A stretch of 20,330 nt of DNA from positions 1-20,330 of the IMG/VR virus record IMGVR_UViG_3300045135_002423; one strand, given 5' to 3'. The notes under the pieces are model-generated. The model was not told the DNA's origin and did not search any database. It saw only the letters and a list, made by a program, of their open reading frames with translations. Source of the DNA: a virus. Of this stretch, positions 3,881-19,485 are shown in pieces; position 1 is the first letter of the stretch; each line of letters starts with the position of its first letter. The position numbers and the translations under genes are program-made.

Positions 3881-4837
3881 ATGAATTCTTCATTTGAATG
3901 GTTTATGGGTGTTATTGAGGATCGAATTGATCCTGAAAAATTAAATCGAGTTAAAGTTCGTTGCTTTGGTATACATGATGAAAGCATTTCTTTAATTCCA
4001 ACAGAGGATTTACCATGGGCTACTGTTATGTTACCTACTACATCCTCAGGTATGAACGGTCTCCAATCAACACCGCACGGTTTAGTTGAAGGGTCTTGGG
4101 TTGTCGGTTTCTTTAGAGATGGTAATGGCTATCAAGATCCAGTTGTGATGGGTTCTATTGCATCAATGCCGATGACTGCACCTGTTGCCGAGTTAGGATT
4201 TAATGATCCTAATTTAAAATACCCTAAAGAAACTCATTTAGAAGAATCCGATGTAAATCGTTTAGCAAGGGCTGAAGATACCGAGGAAGATATTCCTACT
4301 CTGAAAAAAGATTCAGTCACAAAGGAAATCCCGACAGCAACCGATCAACAATGGGATGAGCCTGAAACACCTTATGCGCCAGAATATCCTTTCAATAAAG
4401 TATATGAATCAGAGTCCGGACATATTTTTGAAATAGATGATACTGAAGGTGTTGAGCGACTTCACGAATACCATAGAACCGGAACATTCAGAGAAGTACA
4501 TCCTGACGGTTCAGTTGTAACGAGAGTCGTTAAAGATACGTATGAAATCGTATACGGAAATAGTTTTGTAAATGTAAAAGGAAATGTATCATTAACAATC
4601 GATTCAAATTGCGAAACGTATATTAAAGGGAATTGGGACATTAAAGTTGATGGCAATGTGACGCAAACAATCGGCGGTACGTTGACTGAAGAAGTCGCCG
4701 GTGATGTTACTGAAACATATAACTCAAACCAAACAACAAAAGTATCAAGCAATGTCAACGAAGACTTTGGTGGAACACAGACCACGAAAGCGGGTGGCAA
4801 TATTGATATTGATGCATCTAAGGTATTCATTAACTAA
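3881..4837 (+). CDS. 5: Baseplate spike gp5 without lysozyme domain
   Basis: This is the central membrane-puncturing spike protein. Residues 8-95 form the OB-fold domain (FMGVIEDRIDP, RVKVRCFGIHD, LPWATVMLP, GSWVVGFFRDG, DPVVMGSI). A linker of about 75 residues follows, rich in E, D, T and P. From about 175 comes the start of the gp5C needle (YESESGHIFEIDDTEG, TGTFREVHPDGS). Residues 230-310 carry repeated VxGN-type strands of the triple beta-helix. T4 gp5 has 575 residues with a lysozyme between OB-fold and needle. Here, at 318 residues, that enzyme is absent and only a linker remains, as I recall for marine T4-like phages. AGGA lies nine bases before the ATG. The stop overlaps the next ATG by one base. 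Confidence 0.92.
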   Translation: MNSSFEWFMGVIEDRIDPEKLNRVKVRCFGIHDESISLIPTEDLPWATVMLPTTSSGMNGLQSTPHGLVEGSWVVGFFRDGNGYQDPVVMGSIASMPMTAPVAELGFNDPNLKYPKETHLEESDVNRLARAEDTEEDIPTLKKDSVTKEIPTATDQQWDEPETPYAPEYPFNKVYESESGHIFEIDDTEGVERLHEYHRTGTFREVHPDGSVVTRVVKDTYEIVYGNSFVNVKGNVSLTIDSNCETYIKGNWDIKVDGNVTQTIGGTLTEEVAGDVTETYNSNQTTKVSSNVNEDFGGTQTTKAGGNIDIDASKVFIN

Positions 4838-5346
4838 TGGCTGTTTTTAATACATACACACCTGGGTCAGGACAATTTGATAATACAATTACCGTCACTG
4901 ATGGGGGTGGATCATTTACAAACGAGACCGATGCAAATGGCGCAGAGACAAAGGCATTGAAATCTGACATCGTTGAGTTTGGTGCAAGCGGGGATGATAG
5001 TAAAGGCGCATTAACAACAACCGCAAGTGGTACACCCCCTGGAGTTTCAGGGGTTGACGAAGGATCTGGCAAATTGCATTTGGCCGGTACACCATCAAAT
5101 TCAATCATACCTACATATGATATATCACTATATGCAAAAGATAATCCTCCTACAATTTCAACAGGAGGAACACCTGCAACATATCGAGTAGGCGATCAGG
5201 TAAACATATATAAAAAATTTGATGTAACAGTCACAAGTAAGCATAAAGCCTCGGCTTCAGTTACAGTACCAATTTATATTGTTAAAGATTGGAATGAAGA
5301 AAAGGATAATTTCCTTGCTTATGTAGATCAAGAATATCCGGAGTAG
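4837..5346 (+). CDS. Unknown protein with Ig/cadherin-like domain between spike and PAAR
   Basis: I do not recognise a named family for the whole 169-residue protein. Residues 64-103 (SGTPPGVSGVDEGSGKLHLA, GTPS, YDISLYAKDN) follow the pattern of putative Ig/cadherin-like 'He_PIG' domains: PPG, substitution of the x-x-GxLxGTP turn, then alternating hydrophobic strand ending in AxDN. The N-terminal 60 residues are Gly/Thr/Asp-rich. The C-terminal 40 residues (WNEEKDNFLAYVDQEYPE) are charged and probably helical. No signal peptide or membrane segment is visible. Its ATG shares a base with the gp5 stop (TAATG), so its translation is likely coupled to the spike. PAAR follows two bases after its stop. 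An accessory spike/tip protein, a chaperone for spike assembly or a virion decoration are all possible; the role is inference from position. Confidence 0.75.
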   Translation: MAVFNTYTPGSGQFDNTITVTDGGGSFTNETDANGAETKALKSDIVEFGASGDDSKGALTTTASGTPPGVSGVDEGSGKLHLAGTPSNSIIPTYDISLYAKDNPPTISTGGTPATYRVGDQVNIYKKFDVTVTSKHKASASVTVPIYIVKDWNEEKDNFLAYVDQEYPE

Positions 5347-5348
5347 TT

Positions 5349-5639
5349 ATGGGAAGACCAGCAGGAAGAGATACTGATATCTGTACAGGGCATGGACCAT
5401 TTCCGCCGCGGACACCAACGTCATCCAGCGGTAATGTTATCATTAATGGTCTTGGCGCATTACGAAAAAATGATTCTTATGATGTGCATTGCGTTGGTTC
5501 AAGCTGTCATGCAAGTGTGTGTCAATCTGGTTCAGGAACGGTATTCATAAATGGTAGGGATGCTATGAGAATGGGAGATCCTATTGCGTGCGGATCTTTC
5601 ATTGCGCAAGGATCTTCTAACGTATTTATTGGAAAATAG
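5349..5639 (+). CDS. 5.4: PAAR-domain spike tip protein (T4 gp5.4-like)
   Basis: This 96-residue PAAR protein forms the sharp cone that caps the gp5 needle and binds one metal ion. It has the N-terminal MGRPAGRDTDICTGHG, two GNVIINGLGALRKNDSYDVH / GTVFINGRDAMRMGDPIACG half-repeats, and the ending GSSNVFIGK usual for the family. Candidate metal ligands are H15, H47, C48, C53, H54, C58 and C81; the family typically uses three His and one Cys. The cysteine count is on the rich side. GGAG at 5340-5343 lies five bases before the ATG, overlapping the end of the upstream gene. Length (T4 gp5.4 is 97 aa) and position after gp5 support the call. Confidence 0.93.
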   Translation: MGRPAGRDTDICTGHGPFPPRTPTSSSGNVIINGLGALRKNDSYDVHCVGSSCHASVCQSGSGTVFINGRDAMRMGDPIACGSFIAQGSSNVFIGK

Positions 5640-7916: not shown

Positions 7917-10142
7917 ATGTCATTTTCAGAATCAAATAGATTATTAGAGGTAATTCCTCAGAATGTATATAGTAGAGCAGAGCCTTTTGTTGAAATATTA
8001 AAGGCCTATTACGAATACATTTCTCAGACAGATCAACCTTCTGAAGTATTAAATAGAGAGTCTTTATTAAGGGATGTCACTAAGACGACCGAACAATTTG
8101 TTCTTAGTTTGTTTAATGAACTTGGATCAAGTTTTTATTATGATAATGCAACAACACAAGCAAGCTCTCGAGCAATCATTGAAAATATTTCGACAATATA
8201 TAATGCCAAAGGTTCTTTAGAATCAATTAAAGCATTATTTAAAATAATATTCAATGAAGATATTGACTATTATTTACCAAAAGAATTTATGTTGCGACCA
8301 TCAGACGGAGATTGGAAGCAAGATTATTCTATCACATGTAATATTAATTCCGGCGATATTTTTGATATCATTGGAGAATTTGTTACTGTTACTACGCAAT
8401 ACCCCGGCCAGCCTGTACAAACATTTCAGGTAGAAGTTACTCGTGCCGAAAAAATTACTGCAACTATTGCAATAGTATACGTTTCTCGCTTTAGCATTAA
8501 AGCATTTTATGAAGGATCGCTTATTACCTTTGGCGATGTTGAGCTTGAGCTCATTAATACAATGGATGAGGTTCTTTATAATTATAACCCTGGCACAAAA
8601 TTCAAAGCAGGCGATCTTTATAACATTAATTATTATGTTCGTAATAATTCATATAATGATTTAGTTGCTTTGGCCGCTGGCGATGCTGCATATCAACCTT
8701 ATGTTGATCGTATCGGAAAATATTATTCGCAATCAACATCTATTAACCGTTATATTGATTCTGCAAGTCGTATTAACAAATATGGTTACCAAACAGTAAT
8801 TACAAACAGTTATACAGATGGCCTTGTAATTAAAGACATCACAAGATCGCAATTAAGCTTTAGAACAATCACATACGGCGACATTGAAATACAATTAGCT
8901 TTTAACGAGAGCGGAAATCGTACAAAAAAAGTAATTAATTTATCGGCATCACCTGCTCAGTCTCCATTGGTTGATTGGGATGAAATGATTATTGAATTGA
9001 TTAAAGTAGCTGAAGGTGATAATACAACACCATTCTATACTTTTTTTACAACTGATAATGGTGCAGGGTATGCTCGTGGCGATATTAATAATGATGGAAT
9101 TATTGATATAAACGATGTTGAGTTATTTGTTCGAAGGCTAATGGGAAGAACAATCGAAGGATCCTATCTTACATGGATTATCGATAATATTGAAACAGAC
9201 TTATTAGCAACGAGTTATCCTACTCCAGCATTAAGCACTGCCGCAGGCGCAGGATCGGCGACATTACTACCGATCTTATTTAATCAAACTGGCGGCTTAT
9301 CATTATTTAACTTAATTGATTATGGATACGGTTACCCTGATTCTTTTATTACTGTTATTCAGCCAAACGATGTAACCGGTGAACCTTCAGTTCTTATTAT
9401 GCTTTCTGACATTGTGGCAAAATCATCTTCATATTATAATAACACTGCAGGGTTTTTGTCAGCTGATATCAAATTGCAAGACAATGAATTTTACCAAAAC
9501 TTTTCTTATGTAATTCGTACCGGTACTTCGGCTGAACAGTTTAATAAAACAATTAAAAAGACAGTTCATCCTGCTGGGATGAAACCATTTAACGAATTAT
9601 TGATATCAAATTCGATATCAATTGAAGATGATGCGGCATTAAATGCATTAACAAATTTCATTTATAATAGACGGTTTCAAGAATTTGCTTATGGCGAGTC
9701 AGAAAAAGAAACTTGGAATATGCATAAGCCTAGAGAAGATACTGCTTATGCTGCTTCAGGTAAAGAAATATATGACATGTCTAAGCCTAAAGAAGATACT
9801 GCTTATGCAGTATCTGGTAAAGAAATATATGACATGGCTAAACCTTTGTCACAGCAGTTTGCATATGCGGATTCTGGTAAAGAAACGTATGACATGGCTA
9901 AGCCTAAAGAAGATACCGCCTATGCAAGCACAGGCAAAGAAACGTATGACATGGCTAAGCCTAAAGAAGATACCGCCTATGCAGAATCCGGTAAAGAAAC
10001 TTTAGAAATAAATAAACCTTTATTACAACAAACTGCATATGCAGACGAAACTATTAGTATATCCACATATATATACTATGTAGATGAAGGTTATATAGAA
10101 AATCAATTTGATTACGTATTAAAATTTGAAACCTTAATTTAA
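7917..10142 (+). CDS. Baseplate wedge/structural protein in the gp7 position
   Basis: This 741-residue protein is encoded between gp6 and gp8 homologues, where T4 has gp7 (1032 aa). The N-terminal 140 residues (RAEPFVEILKAYYEYISQTD, IYNAKGSLESIKALFKIIFN, then FMLRPSDGDWKQDY) are a block I associate with marine T4-like virion proteins annotated as wedge or structural. Residues 389-400 form a perfect EF-hand/dockerin-type calcium loop, followed by a short helix (VELFVRRLMG). The end (about 590-711) is a tandem 19-20-residue repeat array. A final stretch of some 30 residues (YVDEGYIENQFDYVLKFETL) closes the protein. No ribosome site is evident before the ATG, seven bases after the gp6 stop. The gp7 assignment is positional; the N-terminal family is more secure than the function. 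Confidence 0.8.
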   Translation: MSFSESNRLLEVIPQNVYSRAEPFVEILKAYYEYISQTDQPSEVLNRESLLRDVTKTTEQFVLSLFNELGSSFYYDNATTQASSRAIIENISTIYNAKGSLESIKALFKIIFNEDIDYYLPKEFMLRPSDGDWKQDYSITCNINSGDIFDIIGEFVTVTTQYPGQPVQTFQVEVTRAEKITATIAIVYVSRFSIKAFYEGSLITFGDVELELINTMDEVLYNYNPGTKFKAGDLYNINYYVRNNSYNDLVALAAGDAAYQPYVDRIGKYYSQSTSINRYIDSASRINKYGYQTVITNSYTDGLVIKDITRSQLSFRTITYGDIEIQLAFNESGNRTKKVINLSASPAQSPLVDWDEMIIELIKVAEGDNTTPFYTFFTTDNGAGYARGDINNDGIIDINDVELFVRRLMGRTIEGSYLTWIIDNIETDLLATSYPTPALSTAAGAGSATLLPILFNQTGGLSLFNLIDYGYGYPDSFITVIQPNDVTGEPSVLIMLSDIVAKSSSYYNNTAGFLSADIKLQDNEFYQNFSYVIRTGTSAEQFNKTIKKTVHPAGMKPFNELLISNSISIEDDAALNALTNFIYNRRFQEFAYGESEKETWNMHKPREDTAYAASGKEIYDMSKPKEDTAYAVSGKEIYDMAKPLSQQFAYADSGKETYDMAKPKEDTAYASTGKETYDMAKPKEDTAYAESGKETLEINKPLLQQTAYADETISISTYIYYVDEGYIENQFDYVLKFETLI
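9081..9116 (+). other. EF-hand/dockerin-like Ca2+ loop in the gp7-slot protein
   Basis: The codons read DINNDGIIDIND (residues 389-400). D1, N3, D5, G6, I8, D9 and D12 fit the canonical 12-residue calcium-binding loop. The preceding Gly and the following VELFVRRLMG helix match one half of a type I dockerin repeat. Only one half-repeat is visible. Confidence 0.75.
9684..10049 (+). repeat. Six full plus one partial 57-60-nt tandem coding repeats
   Basis: Unit starts are 9684, 9741, 9798, 9858, 9915, 9972 and 10032 (partial). The consensus peptide is TAYAxSGKExYDMxKPKED (19 aa). Units 3 and 6 have a 20-residue form in which KED is replaced by LSQQ or LLQQ. At DNA level units 4 to 6 are nearly identical, including two exact copies of the stretch coding DMAKPKEDTAYA, which suggests recent duplication. 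Units 1 and 7 are the most diverged. Confidence 0.92.
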
Positions 10143-19254: not shown

Positions 19255-19485
19255 ATGTTAAATAATGAAGTAATACCTGTTGAAGGAAGTTCGGATCTCG
19301 TAAGAGATCCGAATTCCGGCGCAATTATAAACACAAATAAAACCGCCTATGAAAATGCATTGGCTGTAGCAAAAGCAGCTAAAGAAAAAGAAGAAAAAAT
19401 AAAATCTTTAGAAAGCGATATAAATACAATTAAAGATGATATCACGTCAATGAAAGAAATGCTTCTGCAACTAATTAAAGGTTAA
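19255..19485 (+). CDS. Small coiled-coil virion-linked protein
   Basis: The protein has 76 residues in two parts. The N-terminal part (VIPVEGSSDLVRDPNSGAII, NTNKTAYENALA) carries the RDPxSGAIINxNxxxY motif that I associate with small conserved proteins next to tail-fibre genes in T4-like marine phages. The C-terminal part from about residue 42 is strongly heptad-like (KEEKIKSLESDINTIKDDIT, then MKEMLLQLIKG) and should form a coiled coil. The function is unknown; a trimeric connector or fibre-assembly factor would fit. The ATG lies three bases after the stop of the giant gene and has no ribosome site, so translation is probably coupled. A strong hairpin lies within its first 63 bases. Confidence 0.8.
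   Translation: MLNNEVIPVEGSSDLVRDPNSGAIINTNKTAYENALAVAKAAKEKEEKIKSLESDINTIKDDITSMKEMLLQLIKG
19285..19317 (+). other. Strong intragenic RNA hairpin with GUAA tetraloop
   Basis: GGAAGTTCGGATCTC (19285-19299) pairs with GAGATCCGAATTCC (19304-19317) around the loop GTAA. This gives 14 base pairs interrupted only by one bulged G at 19289. The loop is of the stable GNRA class when transcribed from the + strand. No T-run follows, so it is not a standard terminator. It begins 30 bases after the ATG of the 76-aa gene. A processing, stability or translation-control role is inference. Confidence 0.8.

Follow-up and report, generated by a model that had tools for sequence, protein, structure and literature searches.

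A stem-loop held near the start codon of a small gene in T4-like cyanophages and their relatives, without a conserved sequence

Structured RNA is usually recognised through covariation within one fixed fold. The stretch of DNA analysed here, hereafter the window, is the entire 20,330-base record of a virus with a T4-type baseplate operon, and it contains a strong hairpin inside a 76-aa gene. An Rfam 15 search of the window gave no match above the gathering score, the exact hairpin sequence was found in no other contig of IMG/VR, and a literature search found no paper describing the element. The question raised by this locus is whether such a hairpin is an accident of the way in which a short peptide is encoded or a selected part of the mRNA, and, if it is selected, what it might act upon.

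An earlier note, made from the letters alone, had described a 14-bp stem with a GUAA loop as the strongest inverted repeat that it saw, and this description holds with the addition of one bulged G. The letters read GGAA G TTCGGATCTC GTAA GAGATCCGAA TTCC, in which a perfect core of 10 bp is extended by the pairing of GGAA with TTCC across the bulge. With a score of 26 the hairpin ranks first among the nine strong short-loop stems of the window (the runner-up has 23), and together with its flanks, as a 73-mer, it folds at -23.7 kcal/mol, with a z of -5 against dinucleotide shuffles. The stem score alone is mildly surprising in 20 kb, because 0.17 stems of this strength are expected per order-1 Markov sequence of the same length, which amounts to roughly one in every six windows. 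When only synonymous changes are allowed, as the earlier note had advised, 3 of 50,000 usage-weighted synonymous versions fold equally well, as do 2 of 20,000 uniform ones. The stem codons that had been singled out as unusual are indeed rare in the window, TCG accounting for 10% and TCC for 5% of serine codons, CTC for 4% of leucine codons, and CCG for 9% of proline codons. By itself the window hairpin would be a moderate finding, and its relatives decide. As a separate observation, the nine strong short-loop stems of the whole window (score >=20) compare with 2.7 expected from order-1 Markov sequences, and some of them sit within long baseplate genes.

The gene that carries the hairpin (Table 1) matches phrog_473 with an E value of 3.1e-22 (hmmscan; residues 6-75 on positions 3-72 of 75), and the T4-GC112 label is found in the records of S-PM2, P-SSM2, S-SM2, and P-HM1. 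On sequence similarity, its family is a Kyanoviridae-type one, encoding a small structural protein of the virion in T4-like cyanophages and their relatives, and the cyanophage neighbor at the position of the 7-kb gene is of VrlC type. The hairpin had previously been placed, within this gene, at the junction between the 7-kb gene and the fibre gene; it is not at a gene junction, beginning 30 nt past the ATG of the 76-aa gene and lying about 170 bp before the fibre-like gene. In nearly all relatives, with start codons inferred by taking the first ATG, the gap between the upstream stop and the start is -1, +1, -4, or -19 (the first three dominate), as compared with +3 in the window, and an obvious Shine-Dalgarno sequence is likewise missing in nearly all of them. 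The family as a whole therefore has the adjacent or overlapping arrangement of stop and start that is found in termination-reinitiation coupling.

Table 1. Coordinates of the hairpin, of the gene that contains it, and of the neighboring genes in the window
Feature	Position	Strand	Basis or description
7-kb baseplate gene, 2336 aa	12241..19251	+	phrog_358 and phrog_877 matches; stop abuts start of 76-aa gene
76-aa gene, phrog_473 / T4-GC112	19255..19485	+	hmmscan match to phrog_473, T4-GC112 labels, family HMM search
ATG start codon	19255..19257	+	3 nt past upstream TAA; no obvious Shine-Dalgarno sequence upstream
mRNA stem-loop	19285..19317	+	14 bp, one bulged G (G19289), GUAA loop, MFE -20.0 kcal/mol
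5' arm of perfect 10-bp core, TTCGGATCTC	19290..19299	+	
GUAA tetraloop (GNRA type)	19300..19303	+	
3' arm of 10-bp core, GAGATCCGAA	19304..19313	+	
Fibre-like gene, cut by contig end	19493..20330	+	no confident family; outside the element

An HMM search of IMG/VR and isolate records provided 226 loci of the family (numbered with an L below), reduced to 98 non-redundant relatives that are at least 15% apart in DNA. For every relative, a 60-nt segment at the site was tested against synonymous recodings that follow the codon usage of that locus. The mean z at the site is -1.83 to -2.03, with p<=0.01 in 32 of the 98 relatives; when the 60-nt segment is slid along the gene, the effect is maximal at the site, weaker in overlapping neighbors, and further on reaches mean z values of 0 to -0.64, and the same test at the 3' end of the upstream gene gives +0.13 to -0.52. 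Folding stronger than that of synonymous versions is found in this family at 30-70 nt past the start codon, the interval in which selection for strong folding has been described for about 45% of the organisms analysed by Peeri and Tuller (2020, PMC7063772). Among close pairs of relatives, synonymous change in the hairpin codons is weakly lowered (0.101, versus 0.118 elsewhere), and in close pairs that lack the hairpin the values are 0.204 at those codons versus 0.137 elsewhere. Selection for the fold beyond peptide and codon usage is well supported, and the feature is very probably a selected mRNA hairpin. The stem is not universal: about half of the lineages are without a strong one, including S-PM2 (L119), Melnitz (L115), C48C1 (L118), and L008, and among isolate or single-cell records chosen for protein similarity it is present in 10 of 22.

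Those absences are among the points that might be cited for coincidence, in which the peptide S-D-L-V-R-D-P happens to be writable as a near-palindrome and phage genes tend to fold strongly near their beginnings, with no dedicated element at all. The motif D-L-x-R-D does permit GATCTN..NAGATC, the synonymous null itself has lower values here than it has further along the gene, and in four cyanophage genomes early windows of genes in general fold slightly better (mean z -0.7 to -0.87, versus about -0.5 in gene interiors). The null, however, fixes both the peptide and the codon usage, and comparison with other genes sets the family apart. Strong stems lying no more than 100 nt from the AUG are present in 36 of 97 relatives, but the four cyanophage genomes have them in only 37 of their 817 other genes (Fisher 6e-19), a rate approximately eightfold that of the other genes; with the family's own members counted, 41 of 821 genes in these genomes have such a stem. 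Of 104 ortholog groups, the 76-aa gene family alone has a strong stem in each of the four genomes, a first rank that is biased because the genomes were chosen partly with knowledge that the stem was present. This excess, together with the occurrence of stems in unrelated registers that track the AUG (below), already disfavors coincidence, which is distinctly unlikely.

A more general cause of early hairpins was also considered, namely stop/start overlap or a missing Shine-Dalgarno sequence, and it is unsupported across the 821 cyanophage genes. Overlapping starts are generally without such stems, so that coupling alone is not the reason, and something particular to the 76-aa gene must be. Separately, very strong hairpins not accounted for by synonymous recoding occur early in other genes of the S-SM2 and P-HM1 genomes (L229-L248), examples in S-SM2 being the genes that start at 125971, 150629, and 98804; these stems are not consistently common to orthologs.

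Comparison of the stems themselves illustrates how thoroughly they have been rebuilt between lineages. The nearest relative (L034) has AGAATAAGGATCTC-GTGA-GGGATCCTTATTCT, with several pairs altered on both sides, a compensatory rebuild. In other relatives GGGTCAC pairs with GTGACCC (L093, L129, and L130), ATTCCTGTCGAGG with CCTCGGCAGGGAT (L055, L057, L059, and L226), CATCCCGA with TCGGGATG (L036), TCTCATCCCC with GGGGATGAGA (L218), and, in P-SSM2 (L120), ACCTGTTTC with GAAACAGGT. Relatives that share the register of the window have GCAA, GTGA, or GTAA loops, and one register class is a uniform GGATCTC-GNRA-GAGATCC hairpin; across the family, loops vary from 3 to 12 nt, stem and loop sequences are unrelated, and 43 stem-bearing rows show 15 register values. 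On a tree built on the upstream gene, outside the hairpin, register switches 19 times; on starred branches, presence or absence of the hairpin switches no fewer than 12 times (parsimony gives 22 switches, and shuffling 31.5).

The compensatory changes that the earlier note had proposed to look for in relatives are seen in the rebuilt stem of L034 but not as covariation in a fixed register, which in the 44 DLxRD relatives is no better than in a control slid by -1; it fails in these relatives because their registers differ. Within a subset of 19 sequences that share the register of the window, which was picked for pairing, covariation is clear, and the covariation score is 0.140 versus 0.073 in shuffled data (0 of 500). 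Relatives with the same peptide and no pairing had been named as evidence that would count against the element. One locus (L008) does have the same SDLVRDPN peptide with no pairing, whereas L023-L027, with SDLVRDPNSGAII, have a hairpin that is different and shifted. It follows from these cases that what is kept is structure near the AUG in many lineages, not the exact stem of the window.

The position of the stem is far more regular than its sequence. The 5' stem base lies about 17-45 nt past the AUG (median 28 when counted from its A, with most values at 17 to 31), and of 38 strong stems located anywhere from -60 to +200, 35 are centered at +20 to +80. Across rows, the position of the stem relative to the peptide follows the distance between AUG and peptide with a slope of -1.04 +- 0.23; on unique combinations the slope is -1.22 +- 0.34 (permutation 0.0007). 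Where the N-terminus of the protein is longer, the stem is shifted in the 5' direction with respect to the conserved L-x-R-D motif, and the distance between AUG and stem therefore stays similar. The stem is anchored to the start codon and not to the peptide. A single-cell virus, AG-345-L05 (L122:1484-1590), has a 13-bp stem unusually far downstream in the same gene, at +53 to +88.

Which molecule is selected can be approached from the mismatches in the stems. When stems are called strand-neutrally, with no preference for G.U over A.C, the family stems contain 33 G.U and 7 A.C, versus 37 and 31 in gene interiors of the four cyanophage genomes (Fisher 0.004, or 0.012 when each combination of register and start distance is counted once). 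When sense and antisense folding are compared directly, the difference has the same sign and is weak (p 0.56 and 0.015 in two windows). Because position tracks the start codon and mismatches favor G.U over A.C, it is probably the sense mRNA on which selection acts. With this bias added to the synonymous null, the gene-wide and genome-wide controls, and the compensatory rebuilding in L034 and others, the proposal of the earlier note that selection acts on the RNA as well as on the protein is strongly supported.

The same observations bear on the suggestion, made in that note, that the variable fibre gene might have a recombination point beside it. A DNA-level palindrome, serving either as such a point or as a protein-binding site, would suit the nearness of the fibre-like gene in the window, but it would not account for a preference for G.U on the sense strand or for complete turnover of the sequence. 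Moreover, the genes that follow differ, being neck genes in Bellamy and S-SM2 and fibre-like in the window, and the stem is equally present where neck genes follow; it lies inside a conserved gene and not at a breakpoint. This explanation, already disfavored on these grounds, is very improbable, and the link between the hairpin and fibre variation looks incidental.

Termination and frameshifting represent a different set of roles for a stable GC-rich stem in late mRNA. Attenuation had been among the earlier candidates, yet the absence of a T-run, correctly reported at the time, speaks against an attenuator or terminator: the sequence 3' of the stem is GGCGCAATTATA, and the site is absent from the terminator scan of the window. 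For classic read-through the stem is too distant from the stop. A programmed -1 frameshift stimulator, which would need a fixed frame relation and a slippery site 5-9 nt before the stem, was considered and rejected; the family gaps of -1 and +1 correspond to different frames relative to the upstream gene, so that no fixed frameshift product is possible. Roles of this type, likewise already disfavored, are extremely improbable.

The preferred reading of a sense-strand structure at a set distance from one start codon is an effect on the early translation of the coupled gene, for which the chances fall somewhat short of even. As the start lies on or beside the upstream stop and has no obvious Shine-Dalgarno sequence, ribosomes probably come from the 7-kb gene, and those finishing that gene would be the main translators of the 76-aa gene. 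With the AUG in the P site, the hairpin would stand just past the mRNA entry of the ribosome and could slow or gate the first elongation steps. The stem base is usually several nucleotides past the entry point, and the stem would therefore be met in early elongation, within the first few codons, and not in initiation, which it would leave possible. Tuning of the hand-over or of early elongation appears the most likely role; the hairpin may also keep other pairing off the start region. In either way it could set the output of the small virion protein per baseplate protein, by promoting or by limiting it. The full reading, a gene-specific, cis-acting stem-loop that T4-like marine phages hold at a fixed distance from one coupled start by repeated new stems, with no conserved sequence, and that sets how much small virion protein is produced in proportion to the giant baseplate protein, is given a probability of roughly 0.4.

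The main rival of translational tuning is a role in mRNA processing or stability, in which the stem would shield against exonucleases or guide an RNase so that the message for the small gene and the later genes outlives that of the 7-kb gene. A strong sense-strand stem directly after a very long cistron, with neck or fibre genes following, would suit such a role, and a requirement for structure only is compatible with the turnover of sequence and register. A processing stem, however, need not keep its distance from the AUG, and yet that distance is kept; in addition, ribosomes unwind a stem that lies within a translated frame. Processing or stability is on balance unlikely, while retaining an appreciable chance. 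A translational operator, to which a protein of phage or host origin (the product of the gene being one candidate) would bind to shut down translation, has classical phage precedents and would fit the register class with a uniform sequence. Across the family, though, neither loop nor stem sequence is kept, which is unusual for an operator bound by a protein, and domain searches found no known RNA-binding domain in the 76-aa protein; an operator is thus quite improbable.

Comparison with known systems places translational tuning by this stem between several paradigms. The “transition peak” of PMC7063772 resembles it in place relative to the AUG, in the use of a synonymous null, and in that structure is kept rather than sequence; that peak, however, is a weak genome-wide average, whereas here a single family has a discrete stem of 8-16 bp in over a third of its lineages. 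Ribosomes are stalled by hairpins at the mRNA entry of the 30S subunit, which lies 11-12 nt downstream of the P-site codon (PMC7282821), and the pausing stem-loops of dnaX and HIV likewise confront a ribosome close to where reading begins. Those stems stall at that distance and serve frameshifting, whereas the base of the present stems usually falls at +17 to +31 of the AUG, and no context for frameshifting was identified. Coupled starts reviewed in PMC12548453 share the stop/start overlap and RNA structure near the junction, and in one screen cited there, as summarised in the review, structure just past the stop reduced coupling. The inhibitory structures in that review cover the ribosome-binding site, but here the stem is within the downstream frame and leaves the AUG outside. 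T4 itself has in-frame hairpins that act on the ribosome, as mentioned in PMC7282821, in the post-start hairpin of gene 32 and the take-off hairpin of gene 60; in that account these are short, gene-specific, and at other genes, and the likeness implies no claim of homology.

How a structure can be maintained while its sequence is not is of broader interest for the detection of RNA elements. What persists in this family is the fold, with a position that tracks the start codon; the letters of the stem, and even the codons taking part in it, change from lineage to lineage. Alignment-based searches for RNA families would miss such an element because its pairing register shifts, which is a reason to scan phage genes for RNA elements that are conserved in position and free in sequence. 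The locus also offers a small, testable case of how phages may tune protein ratios in a polycistronic late mRNA whose genes touch and have no Shine-Dalgarno signals.

Several other features of the window lie outside this element. A tandem repeat array at 9725-10042, with 57-nt and larger units that are ~78-80% alike, encodes KEDTAYAxSGKETYDMAKP-like units near the end of a 741-aa baseplate-wedge-like gene. A Gp5-like spike gene with OB and trimerisation domains is followed, within 3881-5639, by one gene of 169 aa and then by a PAAR-motif tip protein. On the minus strand, opposite in direction to the baseplate operon, positions 513-965 encode a head-closure protein (phrog_218) that also matches a TnsA-like endonuclease N-terminal domain (Pfam E 4e-17).
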